This document shows positions 38,472-44,395 of a stretch of 64,000 nt of DNA, one piece after another. The notes under the pieces were generated by a model. That model was given only the letters and a program-made list of their open reading frames with translations, was not told where the DNA came from and did no database searches. Each line of letters starts with the position of its first letter. Positions within the stretch are counted from its first letter, which is position 1. The DNA lies in the NCBI RefSeq assembly GCF_900142085.1, contig NZ_FQZQ01000001.1, positions 124,001 to 188,000 on the forward strand, read 5' to 3'. The translations under genes were made by a program, and so were the position numbers. This DNA is from Shimia gijangensis. Its GTDB lineage: Bacteria; Pseudomonadota; Alphaproteobacteria; Rhodobacterales; Rhodobacteraceae.

Positions 38472-40223
38472 TCAGGACGTGGCACGGACCGTATCGGGGG
38501 TCAGTTTGACCATGGCATCGTATTGCGCAAGAAACACCTCGCCAGTCAGATTATCGAGGAAATGACTGCGTTTCAGACGGTCCATGACCGGTCCCTTGAC
38601 CTCAGACAGGTGCAGGGTGATGCCCACCTCGTGCAGACGATGGTTGATCTCTTCAAGGCTTTCCAACGCACTCATGTCGATCTCATTTACCGCCGAACAC
38701 ATCAGCACAACATGGCTGATAGGGGTGTCACCATTCACACGCTCGAGAAGGTAATCCTCGAGAAAGTGGGCGTTGGCAAAATAGAGGCTTTCATCAATGC
38801 GCAACGACACAAGGCTGGGATGGGTTTCGACCTTATGGCGCAGGATATTGCGAAAATGCTGCGTGCCTGGAACCAGACCGACCTCGGCCACATGTGGGCG
38901 GGAGGTTTTGTAAAGGAACAGGCCTAAGGACAGCAGCACACCGGCAGAAACACCGACTTCGACGCCAAATCCAAGCGTCAGAAAGATGGTTGCGGACACC
39001 GCAGAAAAATCAACTTTGGAGTAGGTCCATGTTTTGCGAAGGATCGAGAAATCGACCAGATTAAGAACTGCGACGATGATGGTGGCAGCCAGCGTGGCTT
39101 TGGGAAGAAAGAACAACAGTGGCGTGAGCAAGAGGGCCGCAAAGGCGATCCCAATGGCTGTGAAGGCACCTGCAGCAGGGGTTTCAGCGCCTGCGTCAAA
39201 GTTCACGACGGATCGGGCAAACCCACCCGTGACCGAGTAACCTCCGGACAAGGCTGCGGCGATGTTGGAGGTGCCTAAGCCTACGAGTTCCTGATCCGGG
39301 ACGATGCGTTGGCGTTTTTTGGCAGCAAGGGTTTGTGCGACCGAAACGGATTCTACGAACCCGATGACGGAAATCAGCAAAGCCGACACAAAAAGAGATG
39401 ACCATAGGTCAGCAGAGAAACTGGGCAACGACAGGGGGGGCAGGCCCACCGGAACCTCTCCGACGATCTTTACACCTTTGGTTTGCAGCTGAAACATCCA
39501 TACAACCAGTGTGGTCAGGGCGACCGCGGCAACCGGGCCAGCCTTGGCAAGGATATCGGCCAATCGGGGGGGCATGCCGGTCGACAACAACAATGGCTTC
39601 AGCCCTTTACGCACCCAGAACAGGAACCCAACGCCGGCCACTCCGATCACAAAGGTGATGAGGTTGGTTTCATTCAGGTGGGCGATCAAGGAGGTCACCA
39701 AAGCAATCAGATTGTGACCGTGCGCGTCAACGCCAAGGATGTGTTTGATCTGGGAGGTTGCAATCAGAATACCCGAGGCGGTGATAAATCCTGCGATGAC
39801 TGGGTGTGACAGGAAGTTTGCCAAAAAACCCAATCGGAACAATCCCATAACCGTCAGGATCAGGCCAGAGATAAAGGCCAATGTGATGGCCGCCGCGATG
39901 TATTCTTCGGTGCCTTGCAATGCCAGATTGCCCACCGCAGCTGCGGTCATCAGAGAGACAACAGCAACCGGCCCGACAGCCAATGCCCGCGAGGTGCCAA
40001 AAATCGCATAGGCCACCAATGGCAGGATCGACGCATAAAGCCCCATCTCGGCTGGCAGCCCGGCCAATAGCGCGTAGGCCAGTGATTGCGGGATGAGCAT
40101 GATGGTCACAATCACGGCGGCCACGAGGTCCGATGTGAGCGTATCCCGGCTATAAGTTTTGGACCATTGCAGGATCGGCAGGTGACGCTCGAGTTGGGCG
40201 CGTTTGAGAGGCAGAAGGGTCAT
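38472..40223 (-). CDS. SulP-family inorganic anion transporter with STAS domain
   Basis: This 583-residue protein has a SulP membrane domain with about 12-14 segments (IPQSLAYALLAGLPAEMGLYASILP and GGYSVTGGFARSVVN are family signatures). A C-terminal cytoplasmic STAS domain (about 450-565; VSLRIDESLYFANAHFLEDYLLE) follows. SulP proteins move sulfate, bicarbonate or dicarboxylates. An ATTC-N8-GAAT operator of SqrR/BigR type overlaps its promoter, just as at the neighbouring sulfide-oxidation operon, so sulfate or another sulfur oxyanion is the favoured cargo; this is inference. AGGATTCTC precedes the ATG. Confidence 0.9.
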   Translation of the reverse strand: MTLLPLKRAQLERHLPILQWSKTYSRDTLTSDLVAAVIVTIMLIPQSLAYALLAGLPAEMGLYASILPLVAYAIFGTSRALAVGPVAVVSLMTAAAVGNLALQGTEEYIAAAITLAFISGLILTVMGLFRLGFLANFLSHPVIAGFITASGILIATSQIKHILGVDAHGHNLIALVTSLIAHLNETNLITFVIGVAGVGFLFWVRKGLKPLLLSTGMPPRLADILAKAGPVAAVALTTLVVWMFQLQTKGVKIVGEVPVGLPPLSLPSFSADLWSSLFVSALLISVIGFVESVSVAQTLAAKKRQRIVPDQELVGLGTSNIAAALSGGYSVTGGFARSVVNFDAGAETPAAGAFTAIGIAFAALLLTPLLFFLPKATLAATIIVAVLNLVDFSILRKTWTYSKVDFSAVSATIFLTLGFGVEVGVSAGVLLSLGLFLYKTSRPHVAEVGLVPGTQHFRNILRHKVETHPSLVSLRIDESLYFANAHFLEDYLLERVNGDTPISHVVLMCSAVNEIDMSALESLEEINHRLHEVGITLHLSEVKGPVMDRLKRSHFLDNLTGEVFLAQYDAMVKLTPDTVRATS

Positions 40224-40260: not shown

Positions 40261-40276
40261 ATTCCAAATACTGAAT
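40261..40276. promoter_or_regulatory. SqrR/BigR-type operator (ATTC-N8-GAAT) before the SulP gene
   Basis: ATTCCAAATACTGAAT fits ATTC-N8-GAAT exactly, the published consensus of the persulfide-responsive repressor SqrR of Rhodobacter capsulatus. Read on the minus strand, the operator runs straight into a TATATAAG -10-like sequence, so binding would block the SulP promoter. Confidence 0.72.
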
Positions 40277-40389
40277 AAGTGAAGGGCAAAAATACCCCGC
40301 ATCATCACCCATCTGAAACGCGCACAGTCTGAGGGGCAAAAAAGTCTGCCTCAGTCAGCGGTTTCTGCAGGTGTCTGGCGGGCGCAGGC

Positions 40390-42063
40390 TTAACGTGCCG
40401 AGACCTTTTCCGGCTTGGCGAGCCACTCTTTGCCGCGAAGCATGGCCTTCCAATACACCGGCGGTAGGATTTGTTCCTTGAGAATCCAGGCGCGGCGTGT
40501 GGGTTTGGTGCCATCGACCAGCCATTTCGGAAAGCTGGGCAACAAGGTGCCGCCATATCCGAACTCAGCCAGCACAATCTTGCCACGTTCAACCGTCAGA
40601 GGGCAGGACCCATAGCCATTGTAGATCGCGGTCGGGGAATTGCCTTCGATGTCGTCGATCAGATTTTCCGCCACAACGGGTGCCTGAACGCGGGCCGCCG
40701 CCGCCGTTTTGGCGTTGGGAGCATTCATCACATCGCCAAGGCTCCAGATGTTGTCGAACTCCTTGTGGCGCAATGTTGATTGGTCAACGTCGATCCACCC
40801 GGCGGCATCCGCCAGGGGTGACACCCGGATAAAGTCGGGTGCTGTTTGTGGTGGGCAGACATGCATCATGTCAAAATCGACAGTGACAGTGGTTTTTTCG
40901 GTGTCGGGTTTTGAGACCTCAAATGTCGCCTGTTTGGCCGGGCCGTCCACAGAAATCAGGTTGTGAAAGAAATTGAGATCAGCATCGTAGCGTTCGACAT
41001 ATTCCATCAACGCAGGCACATAATCTTTCACGCCAAACAAGACACCTGCAGCGTTCATGAACTGGATGTCGACGTCTTTCAGAACCCCCATGCGCTCCCA
41101 ATTGCTACCGGACAAATAGAGGGCCTTTTGCGGCGCGCCTGCGCATTTGATCGGCATAGGTGGTTGTGTGAACAACGCGCGTCCCCGTTTGAGGCCTTTG
41201 ACCAACTCCCATGTGTAGGGCGCGAGGTCATAGCGGTAGTTTGAAGTGACGCCGTTTTTGCCCAGAGTTTCGACCAACCCTTCGACCTTGTGCCAGTCGA
41301 GTTTCAGGCCGGGGCAGACGATCAGGCGGTTGTATTTCACCACCCGGCACCCATCCAGAACCACAGCGTTGTCTTTGGGCTCAAAGGCGGCGACCGCAGA
41401 TTTCACCCAGTGAACACCCTTGGGGATCAGCGATCCCATGGTTTTCGCGGTGGTTTCGGCATCGAAAATGCCGCCACCAACCATGGTCCAACCGGGTTGG
41501 TAATAGTGGATGTCCGCTGGGTCGATGATGGCAATGTCCAGACCCGGTTTGCGTGCGCGTAGCGACGACGCCACCGCAATTCCGGCTGCGCCACCCCCGA
41601 CAATCACCACATCAAAAGCGGCATCTGCTGTATCGGTCGGGGTCTTGCCACCATTTACAATGCGGCGGATGACGCCAGCCATGTCGTAACCTGCAGCCTT
41701 GGTTGCGGCCAGAATGTCCGCAGGCTCAAGCGTTTTGGATTGGCTCAGCGACCACAGGGTCGCCGAACGGGTTCCGGTGCGGCAATAAGCGAAAACCGGT
41801 CCCGGCAGTTCCATCAAAGCCTGGCCAAAAGCCTCAGAGTCAGAATCTTGAACCTTGCCGGAAATAATTGGCAAGTTGCGACATTCGAGGCCGGATGCAC
41901 GGGCTTCGGCTTCGATTTCCTCAAAGGTTGGCTGATCTGCAGCTTCGCCATCAGGACGGTTGCATATGATTGAACGGAAGCCCATTTCTGCGATAGCCTT
42001 GACGTCGTCGGGGCTGATTTGCGGCGAGACCGAAATCTGGTCATTGATCTTACGGGCTTCCAT
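40390..42063 (-). CDS. DUF442 sulfurtransferase-like domain fused to sulfide:quinone oxidoreductase
   Basis: This 557-residue fusion has two parts. Residues 1-about 115 are a TIGR01244/DUF442 (Blh-type, phosphatase/rhodanese-like) domain with an active-site-like CRTGTRS loop (Cys94). Residues about 148-557 are an SQOR-type flavoprotein: FAD motif VVIVGGGAAG (153-161), redox cysteines in KCAGAPQK (Cys307) and HVCPPQ (Cys403), and SLGDVMNAPNAKTAAA. The cysteines and the CAGAPQK and SCPLTVERGKIVLAEF motifs match animal-like SQORs. The protein would oxidise sulfide to a persulfide and pass electrons to quinone. The DUF442 part could move the sulfane sulfur. It lies 24 bases after DUF2892 in an operon with a SqrR/BigR-type operator. 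Confidence 0.88.
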   Translation of the reverse strand: MEARKINDQISVSPQISPDDVKAIAEMGFRSIICNRPDGEAADQPTFEEIEAEARASGLECRNLPIISGKVQDSDSEAFGQALMELPGPVFAYCRTGTRSATLWSLSQSKTLEPADILAATKAAGYDMAGVIRRIVNGGKTPTDTADAAFDVVIVGGGAAGIAVASSLRARKPGLDIAIIDPADIHYYQPGWTMVGGGIFDAETTAKTMGSLIPKGVHWVKSAVAAFEPKDNAVVLDGCRVVKYNRLIVCPGLKLDWHKVEGLVETLGKNGVTSNYRYDLAPYTWELVKGLKRGRALFTQPPMPIKCAGAPQKALYLSGSNWERMGVLKDVDIQFMNAAGVLFGVKDYVPALMEYVERYDADLNFFHNLISVDGPAKQATFEVSKPDTEKTTVTVDFDMMHVCPPQTAPDFIRVSPLADAAGWIDVDQSTLRHKEFDNIWSLGDVMNAPNAKTAAAARVQAPVVAENLIDDIEGNSPTAIYNGYGSCPLTVERGKIVLAEFGYGGTLLPSFPKWLVDGTKPTRRAWILKEQILPPVYWKAMLRGKEWLAKPEKVSAR

Positions 42064-42087
42064 CGGTGCTTATCCTTGGCTTTTGCG

Positions 42088-42300
42088 TTAGCGGCGGCAG
42101 GTAGACATGCCAACCAGCCGGTAGAGAGGGCAGAACTTCATGGCCGAAGTGGCCACGAGAATGATGCCTACGGCCATAGCACCATATTTCAAGATTGCAC
42201 TGTCCCAAAGGGCATAGTCCGTGACGAAGGGCCACAGGAACAAGGCTGCTCCAAGAAGGATGCGCAGTAGCCGATCAATTTTGCCGACGTTCTTGGTCAT
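42088..42300 (-). CDS. DUF2892 small membrane protein (YgaP-like membrane domain)
   Basis: This 70-residue protein begins NVGKIDRLLRILLGAALFLW and has two transmembrane helices, then the short hydrophilic end CPLYRLVGMSTCR. That is the DUF2892 fold, the membrane part of the rhodanese YgaP. Two Cys residues (in CPLY and TCR) could carry or bind sulfur species. GGAGACC precedes ATG 42300; the open frame upstream is rejected. It is the first gene of the operon with the DUF442-SQR fusion and has the SqrR/BigR-type box at its promoter. Confidence 0.88.
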   Translation of the reverse strand: MTKNVGKIDRLLRILLGAALFLWPFVTDYALWDSAILKYGAMAVGIILVATSAMKFCPLYRLVGMSTCRR

Positions 42301-42341
42301 TTTGGTCTCCAGAATTGTGGGTTTGTAATACTTGGTATTAT

Positions 42342-42357
42342 ATTCCAATATCTGAAT
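42342..42357. promoter_or_regulatory. SqrR/BigR-type operator (ATTC-N8-GAAT) before the DUF2892/SQR operon
   Basis: ATTCCAATATCTGAAT is an exact ATTC-N8-GAAT match and shares 13 of 16 bases with the SulP site. On the minus strand it is followed directly by TATAAT, a perfect -10, so a bound repressor would occlude RNA polymerase. Confidence 0.78.
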
Positions 42358-42535
42358 GAAATGAAGAGACGCAGTGCGCGCGCCTTGTCGCAGGGTGCCT
42401 GTTGCTTTGGTTCTGATCTGAATGAGCGCACAGAGCGCGCGCAGGTTTCGCCCTGTGTGCAGTTGGTGTCTGGCAGCACTTTGGTGCCAGAATGCGTGTG
42501 GCAGAATCGGCGGCAAGCGTGCTAGGTTTTGCGGT

Positions 42536-44395
42536 ATGATGCGACCTGACCCCAACATAAGCGAAAAATCCCCTGTTATTCGACAGTTGGATGATGCGGC
42601 AATCAATCGGATTGCGGCGGGTGAAGTCGTAGAGCGTCCGGCCTCGGCGGTTAAAGAACTTGTCGAGAATGCTTTGGATGCAGGTGCGGGGCGGATCGAA
42701 GTCTCTTATGGTGTTGGTGGCAAGACGCTGATCCGGGTGACGGACGATGGTTGCGGCATAGCAGCCGATGATTTGCCTCTGGCTCTTTCTCGTCATGCGA
42801 CGTCCAAGATTGATGGGTCTGATCTCTTGGATATTCATACATTCGGGTTCCGGGGCGAGGCCCTCCCGTCTTTGGGGGCGGTTGGTCGGCTCAAGATTAC
42901 ATCGCGTGCGCAGGGACATGATGCGGCTTCGATCACCGTCGAAGGCGGGCAGATGAGTGCGGTTAAGCCGGCTGCCTTGGGCGGCGGCACGATCGTAGAA
43001 CTGCGGGATTTGTTCTACGCCACACCTGCACGGCTAAAATTCATGCGCACGGATCGCGCCGAAGCGCAGGCGATCACCGATGTGGTCAAGCGACTGGCCA
43101 TGGCAGAGCCGTTTGTCGGGTTCACCTTGCGCGATCTGACCAACGGTGGTGAGGGGCGGGTTACGTTTCGGGCTGATCCTGAAAGCGGGGACTTGTTCGA
43201 TGCGTTACATGGCAGATTGGCGCGCATTCTGGGGGCGGAGTTTGCCGACAATGCCTTGCGCATCGATGCCACCCGTGAGGGGTTGCATCTGACGGGCTAT
43301 GCCGCACTGCCAACCTATTCCCGCGGCTCGGCCGTGGCGCAGTATCTGTTCGTGAACGGCCGCCCGGTGAAAGACAAACTTCTGGTCGGCGCACTGCGTG
43401 GCGCCTATTTCGATTTCCTCAGCCGGGATCGTCACCCTGCGGCGGCCCTGTTCATCGAATGTGATCCGCATCTTGTCGATGTGAACGTGCACCCGGCCAA
43501 GTCCGAAGTTCGGTTTCGTGATCCGGGGTTGGCGCGCGGGTTGATTGTGAGTGCTTTGCGTCATGCGTTGGCTGAAGCTGGGCATCGGGCGTCGACCACG
43601 GTGGCAGGGGCGACATTAGGTGCGTTTCGGCCTGAACCAACGGGGCGGGTCTATCAAATGGATCGACCGTCTTTGGGCGCGCGTGCCGCAGGTTATCAGA
43701 TGCAGGCGCCGCAGTCCGCCCAGATGGAAACGCCGGGATTTGGCGAAAGCCCGATGGCGATGAGCGCGCGGGTCGAAGTGGTTGAGGCGTCCGAGGCGGA
43801 AAAACCGCTGGAAAGCCATCCATTAGGCGCAGCGCGCGCGCAGGTGCATGAGAATTACATCGTCGCACAGACCGCAGATGGTATGGTGATTGTCGATCAG
43901 CACGCGGCCCATGAGCGGCTGGTCTATGAAAAACTGAAAGCGCAGATGGCGGAAAACGGCGTGGCTGCGCAGGCCCTGCTGATCCCCGAAATCGTGGAAT
44001 TGTCTGATGGTGATTGCGCACGGCTTTTGGCTGTGGCTGATGACCTGACCAAACTGGGCCTAACGTTGGAACCGTTTGGTGGTGGCGCGGTTGCCGTGCG
44101 CGAAACCCCGGCCATTCTGGGCGAGGTTAATGCCCGGGCCATGGTGCTCGATATTCTGGATGAGCTGGACGATCAGGGCGAAAGCCACATGGTGCAGGCC
44201 CGCATTGAGGCAATCCTCAGCCGTGTGGCCTGTCACGGGTCGATCCGGTCGGGGCGACGCATGCAGGCGGACGAAATGAACGCCCTGTTGCGCGAGATGG
44301 AGGCAACCCCACATTCCGGTCAATGCAACCACGGACGCCCCACCTATGTGGAGCTTAAGCTTGCGGATATCGAAAGGTTGTTTGGGCGAACATGA
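42536..44395 (+). CDS. mutL: DNA mismatch repair protein MutL (endonuclease type)
   Basis: The protein has 619 residues. The GHKL ATPase domain (residues 1-about 330) shows [25 protein letters not shown] and GFRGEAL. The C-terminal dimerisation/endonuclease domain contains [12 protein letters not shown], a full match to the metal-binding DQHA-x2-E-x4-E nuclease motif, plus ACHGSIRSG and CNHGRPT. It therefore nicks DNA itself, as expected where MutH is absent. The start is ATGATG at 42536; AGG lies upstream. Its stop overlaps the rmuC start by 4 bases. Confidence 0.95.

Follow-up and report, generated by a model that had tools for sequence, protein, structure and literature searches.

Paired putative SqrR-type operators at a DUF442-SQR and SulP locus and their candidate repressors

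The stretch of DNA analysed here, 64,000 nucleotides long and termed the window, carries on its minus strand the genes for a small YgaP-like transmembrane protein (DUF2892), a DUF442-SQR-like flavoprotein fusion and a SulP transporter with a STAS domain (Table 1). The transporter scores 457 bits against TIGR00815 (cut-off 380) and matches PF00916 as well as PF01740, as expected of the SulP/SLC26 family. For the fusion, the best SQR model is NF049943 (type III SQR), at 198 bits against a cut-off of 525, and SQR activity of the protein is presumed from its sequence. The scan that identified DUF2892 covered 42088-42303, i.e., one codon ahead of the ATG.

Exact ATTC-N8-GAAT palindromes lie at 40261-40276 (ATTCCAAATACTGAAT) and 42342-42357 (ATTCCAATATCTGAAT), 2.08 kb apart and identical in 13 of 16 bases, just as the original prediction had described them (2.1 kb apart, 13 of 16 bases in common). 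Its further claim, that both are placed directly upstream of a -10 element on the coding strand, also holds, since the sites run into -10-like boxes. Read on the minus strand, the SulP-side site leads into TATATAAG, with 37 bp between its end and the start codon of SulP (40221-40223); the DUF2892-side site leads into TATAAT, with 41 bp between its end and the start codon of DUF2892 (42298-42300). The mutL gene (window 42422-44395) is divergent from the DUF2892-SQR unit; as its longest open reading frame (ORF) begins 65 bp from operator 1, this operator might also affect mutL expression.

Table 1. Features of the locus (window positions) and the two candidate repressor genes found elsewhere in the genome (contig and position).
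Feature	Position	Strand	Description
Operator 1, ATTCAGATATTGGAAT on coding strand	42342..42357	-	between TTCATT (-35-like) and TATAAT (-10-like)
DUF2892 / YgaP-like transmembrane protein, 70 aa	42088..42300	-	PF11127, 77 bits
DUF442-SQR-like flavoprotein fusion, 557 aa	40390..42063	-	DUF442 = PF04273 / TIGR01244 sulfurtransferase
Operator 2, ATTCAGTATTTGGAAT on coding strand	40261..40276	-	between TTCACT (-35-like) and TATAAG (-10-like)
SulP/SLC26 transporter with STAS domain, 583 aa	38472..40223	-	TIGR00815, PF00916, PF01740
Repressor A	C76:115703-116062		orphan, beside an ORF read as helicase
Repressor B	C55:37767-38123		SoxR-like; beside a YeeE/TsuA-related transporter and genes read as sox

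The bare pattern is weak as evidence, because the genome (4.09 Mb, 78 contigs) contains 50 ATTC-N8-GAAT places, 34 of which fall within mechanically called ORFs of at least 100 aa; the genome-wide count was therefore rejected as an argument. Within the window, four matches stand against 1.23 expected, a number reached in 3 of 100 shuffles. Nine of the 50 places lie outside ORFs of at least 100 aa and at most 100 bp from a gene start, and five of these nine belong to SulP, DUF2892-SQR and genes read as soxX, soxB and soxC. An exact palindrome also precedes, at 17 bp, the start of a gene read as rpoD (G000 C50:65212-65227, locus L028 position 3213), probably by chance. For the twin sites chance is excluded, since their position is conserved in relatives.

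This conservation was assessed in a sample of SQR loci. Among 149 genomes drawn from the family, 55 had an SQR match at E<=1e-50, and 38, the own genome included, encode a full-length DUF442-SQR fusion. The draw contributed 40 loci (the 38 full-length fusions including the window, and two SQRs without DUF442), and another 80 named loci came from a contig search. As these 80 are the best 80 of 241 relatives, all locus counts describe the sample only, and some of the sampled loci are cut by contig ends. Two of the 120 loci (L127 and L161) were removed as near-duplicates, yielding 118 non-redundant loci. Sites were sought up to 350 bp upstream of SQR and up to 170 bp behind the SQR stop codon, the latter zone corresponding to the SulP promoter. 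Window included, exact sites occur upstream of SQR in 15 loci and just behind SQR in 12; both positions are occupied in 11 loci and at least one in 16, and 102 loci having the same SQR are without any exact site. Eleven control palindromes with permuted half-site letters were never found behind SQR, and upstream of it each occurred 0-2 times (five in total).

The 11 twin-site loci include the window and loci of a Pelagimonas MAG, Mameliella alba, Maliponia aquimaris and Salipiger mangrovisoli. In the SQR tree, the operator-bearing SQRs need five label changes, and as at least two of these are forced by well-supported branches, they do not simply constitute one clade. The conservation of DUF2892 was left unscored, since BLAST detection was too weak in distant loci. 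The conserved placement lends in silico support to the earlier view of the palindromes as SqrR-type operators, and co-control of the DUF2892-SQR unit and SulP is well supported at this level. Because matching sites are present at SQR and SulP, and the paired layout recurs in relatives, both promoters are probably switched on together by sulfide.

The geometry of the sites suggests how such control would operate. The 27 sites at SQR loci have a common frame of CTTNACA, the 16-bp site and RTATAA, in which a -35-like TTNACA and a -10-like TATAAN flank the palindrome, and the operator occupies the spacer. The window promoters read TTCACT-site-TATAAG (SulP) and TTCATT-site-TATAAT (DUF2892, where -10 and site have one base in common), and at both of them ATTC-N8-GAAT overlaps the promoter, as expected of SqrR/BigR control. 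Scored in a frame that starts on the last site base of the gene strand, at least four of the six TATAAT bases are present at 13 of the 27 locus sites, compared to 6 of 94 site-strands when 47 other sites of the own genome are read on both strands. Judged from these sequences, the sites sit in the spacer of a sigma70-like promoter, where a bound protein would block RNA polymerase. Frequent motif matches had been named as a possible objection to the original prediction; this objection applies to the bare pattern and has much less force in promoter context.

The promoter-context form, ATTC-N8-GAAT followed by RTA, performs better than the bare pattern: it occurs at 51 places in the ten operator-bearing genomes (several of them inside genes, and some palindromes counting on both strands), compared to 2 places for the reversed pattern and 10 for a permuted palindrome. 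In relatives, such sites precede a soxB-like gene (L320) and a rhodanese gene divergent from uvrA (L289/L330 and L318). The palindrome lies between the uvrA-like and rhodanese genes at L330 2993 and L318 2017, and before uvrA in L312 (around 1983), an arrangement that would put a DNA-repair gene at a sulfide-type operator. TsoY-like genes are preceded by two exact sites 24-25 bp apart (L325 2989/3014, L319 2015/2040, L313 2984/3009, L327 3245/3269); the membrane protein of L325 was assigned to the TsoY family with 511 bits (cut-off 150), and those of L313, L319 and L327 by likeness. In L327, a bare-pattern site also marks the start of a gene for a di-haem peroxidase (PF03150) that neighbours a second SQR-like gene. 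In the own genome, the promoter of the TsoY copy (L332) has no site within one mismatch, and the two rhodanese homologues (42% and 36% identical) have neither an exact site in their loci nor a nearby promoter site within one mismatch.

It is very improbable that the sites serve a different regulator which recognises a similar palindrome and has nothing to do with sulfide. A short motif with 50 genomic copies would fit such a regulator, as would the remaining promoter-context matches in relatives, which lie inside genes or before genes without evident sulfur link. However, the motif is shared by several sulfur genes of relatives, and it is the published site deduced for Rhodobacter capsulatus SqrR, as given in the available part of PMC9774250.

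A repressor of the SqrR type would have to be encoded elsewhere. The HTH_5 model has ten matches in the genome and none on contig C36, which carries the window, in agreement with the earlier statement that no SqrR/BigR gene lies there. The genome search that had been proposed for such homologues returned two, A and B, both of the SqrR/BigR type with the conserved cysteine pair; the objection that the genome might lack a homologue thus fails. In a PDB search, both proteins matched 6o8k-6o8o first (A with 115 bits, B with 128.5 bits), entries which we take to be R. capsulatus SqrR (RcSqrR), the record itself stating the ArsR family only. Both score below the cut-off of 155 for the BigR equivalog model NF040642 (102.8 and 93.4 bits, respectively) and are likely relatives of BigR rather than BigR itself. 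In a tree based on 98 columns and featuring long branches, RcSqrR joins clade B with support of 92/40, and A stands apart (row L169, a wrong pick, is disregarded). No recognisable sulfur gene is adjacent to A in its own genome, and upstream of A no site was found within one mismatch.

The distribution of the two repressors points to A. Among the 38 full-length-fusion genomes, A is present in 10/10 operator-bearing genomes (seven with both sites and three with one) versus 8/28 others, with a Fisher p of 9e-5 that is inflated by the relatedness of the genomes. Presence was called at >=140 bits for A, a line drawn through a continuous score list on which the label A depends, and at E<=1e-40 for B. 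Those eight others have A but no exact site, and the G099 match among them contains a stop codon. The corresponding figures for B are 9/10 and 20/28 (p = 0.40), and by this comparison the orphan A appears to track the operators, and the SoxR-like B does not.

The possibility that B, rather than A, reads both sites, and that sox and SQR-SulP form one regulon, is nevertheless to be weighed. B is located in the sox cluster, where exact ATTCA-N6-TGAAT sites precede the genes read as soxX, soxB and soxC (L026, G000 C55; positions 10127, 12478 and 14294), it scores higher than A against RcSqrR in the PDB search and is placed beside RcSqrR in the tree, and it could bind the operators too, because A and B have almost the same recognition helix. 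Yet B fails to separate genomes with operators from those without, and genome G098 (84% complete) possesses both operators and A, with B absent at E<=1e-40. We consider this alternative unlikely. The three sox-gene sites near B may mark another, related regulon of this genome.

The presence of a SulP gene had appeared as an unexpected recruitment in the original prediction. This surprise is misplaced, because SulP is the usual follower of this SQR (96 of the 118 sampled loci), and a pdo-sqrB-sulP arrangement has already been published. According to the available text of PMC6548844, pdo, sqrB and sulP are clustered in Methylophaga thiooxydans, and the SulP is expressed during growth on dimethylsulfide. 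The loci where SulP follows SQR span Alpha-, Beta- and Gammaproteobacteria, including Comamonadaceae, Methylophilus and gammaproteobacterial genomes, and SulP is absent from the Paraburkholderia, Burkholderia, Cupriavidus, Pseudomonas and Acinetobacter loci found. A literature search of partial coverage returned nothing that links SulP to a SqrR/BigR operator, and an earlier description may exist.

What is unusual is how the genes are arranged: loci with operators have no neighbouring persulfide dioxygenase (PDO) gene, and SQR and SulP have separate matching operators. In the stretch examined, PDO is found in none of the 16 operator-bearing loci; among the 102 loci without operator it lies directly upstream in 73 (p = 3e-8) and somewhere in the stretch in 85. 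Loss of PDO from the own genome was considered and rejected, as the gene is located at C67:69297-70163 (66% identical to the operon-type query), accompanied by PmpAB-like genes and a stand-alone DUF442. Anywhere in the genome, PDO was detected at E<=1e-30 in 9/10 operator-bearing genomes, and G053 has none. This PDO lacks an exact site and shows just one stretch with a single mismatch, directly ahead of its start codon. The region is a second sulfide-type locus (L337 5292-6590 and neighbours in G000 C67; L340 in G100), in which the PmpAB-like genes next to PDO and DUF442 are two in number and of the YeeE/PmpAB kind; its PDO promoter carries TTGATTTAGGTCAA, presumably an FNR-like box, which is kept in G100. 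The PDO of L081 (5838-6719), the only such PDO scanned, aligns to the Blh model over residues 140-423 only, and for this reason the Blh halves may be redistributed. In PDO-SQR-SulP loci Blh seems to be split, the dioxygenase half forming a separate neighbouring gene and the DUF442 half being fused to SQR.

The closest solved relative of SulP is the plant H+/sulfate symporter AtSULTR4;1 (337 bits). In an alignment of 93 of 96 SulP proteins (three were dropped as too short), the equivalents of its residues Q112, Y116, A153, E347 and R393 are identical in 93/93 sequences; the Glu347 and Arg393 equivalents that mark a SULTR-type protein at the sequence level are E291 and R337. Ser392 was rejected as a substrate marker: its equivalent is Ala in the window and in 53/93 SulP proteins and Ser in 40/93, and the two are mixed in operator-bearing loci (8 and 7) and in the others (45 and 33). 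Seawater contains about 28 mM sulfate, and the organism is presumably marine, judging from its named relatives. AtSULTR4;1 is described in the available part of PMC8298490 as electroneutral, by inference with two protons per sulfate, and as requiring Glu347 for proton drive. With an AtSULTR4;1-like mechanism in sulfate-rich seawater, sulfate export would therefore run uphill; sulfite or thiosulfate, which are scarce outside, could leave. That SulP exports or imports a sulfur oxyanion is in itself a guess, and release of sulfite or thiosulfate is its likeliest reading, held with modest confidence.

Alternatively, SulP might simply import sulfate or another anion and owe its co-expression to something other than the need to dispose of a sulfide oxidation product. 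The five conserved AtSULTR4;1 positions are compatible with this, as is the activity of the plant protein as a proton-driven importer in liposomes (PMC8298490, available part). On the other hand, sulfate import amid an excess of sulfide would make little sense, SulP is widely paired with SQR and the dioxygenase, and the Methylophaga authors name the neighbour a sulfate/sulfite permease (PMC6548844, available text). Simple import therefore appears rather doubtful.

Taken together, a two-cysteine repressor of the SqrR/BigR type quite probably controls both promoters, induction taking place as sulfide forms persulfides. The repressor, most likely the ArsR-family orphan A on contig C76, would occupy ATTC-N8-GAAT in the -35/-10 spacer of the two promoters and block RNA polymerase. 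Upon oxidation of sulfide to persulfides, sulfur would bridge the two cysteines, the repressor would release the DNA, and both units would be induced. The DUF2892 and DUF442-SQR unit would then oxidise sulfide to sulfane sulfur and hand it on, and SulP would transport an oxidised anion of sulfur, for which release of sulfite or thiosulfate from the cell is more likely than movement of sulfate.

More tentatively, and as a possibility in which we place less than even confidence, orphan clade A would run a dispersed persulfide regulon with SulP as an induced release valve for sulfite or thiosulfate, an ancestral PDO-SQR-SulP operon having been dismantled and its pieces re-wired with individual operators. 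In Rhodobacteraceae-type bacteria, this regulon would span the SQR fusion, SulP, TsoY, the rhodanese shared with uvrA and partly sox. SulP is widely found beside this SQR and, in some lineages, comes with a sulfide-type operator of its own, so that its hitherto vague annotation as a transporter becomes open to testing, and the analysis singles out an uncharacterised SqrR paralogue together with a set of promoters on which it could be tried. If SulP indeed releases sulfite or thiosulfate, it would represent an exit step in the heterotrophic oxidation of sulfide by many bacteria.

We regard the locus as a re-wired form of a known sulfide detoxification unit, with the uncharacterised repressor paralogue A as the most interesting lead. 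It resembles the R. capsulatus SqrR regulon in its operator, the related cysteine-pair repressors and the SQR target. The targets of R. capsulatus SqrR include SQR and a rhodanese, as stated in the available text of PMC9995734, and a site-bearing rhodanese is found here in two relatives (L330, L318). In contrast to that regulon, SulP here has its own operator, SQR is fused to DUF442, and candidate A lies outside the RcSqrR/B group in a weak tree. The pairing of SQR and SulP is shared with the pdo-sqrB-sulP cluster of M. thiooxydans, which however contains the dioxygenase gene; the available text of PMC6548844 mentions no SqrR operator. With the bigR operons of Xylella, Agrobacterium and Acinetobacter baumannii (PMC5823870, PMC7315123, available parts), the system has in common a DUF442 sulfurtransferase, a dual-cysteine ArsR repressor and a transporter for sulfur compounds. 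The Xylella and Agrobacterium operons join DUF442 to the dioxygenase (Blh) and have a TauE-related sulfite transporter, and the A. baumannii transporter genes are YeeE/YedE, whereas the present locus has DUF442 joined to SQR, SulP as the transporter, and no adjacent repressor gene. Finally, DUF2892 belongs to the YgaP-like transmembrane family (PF11127) and thus recalls Escherichia coli ygaVP, where, according to the available part of PMC9774250, the SqrR/BigR homologue YgaV represses its own operon with YgaP and an ATTC-N8-GAAT-like site is present; the regulator adjoins its target there and lies elsewhere in the genome here.
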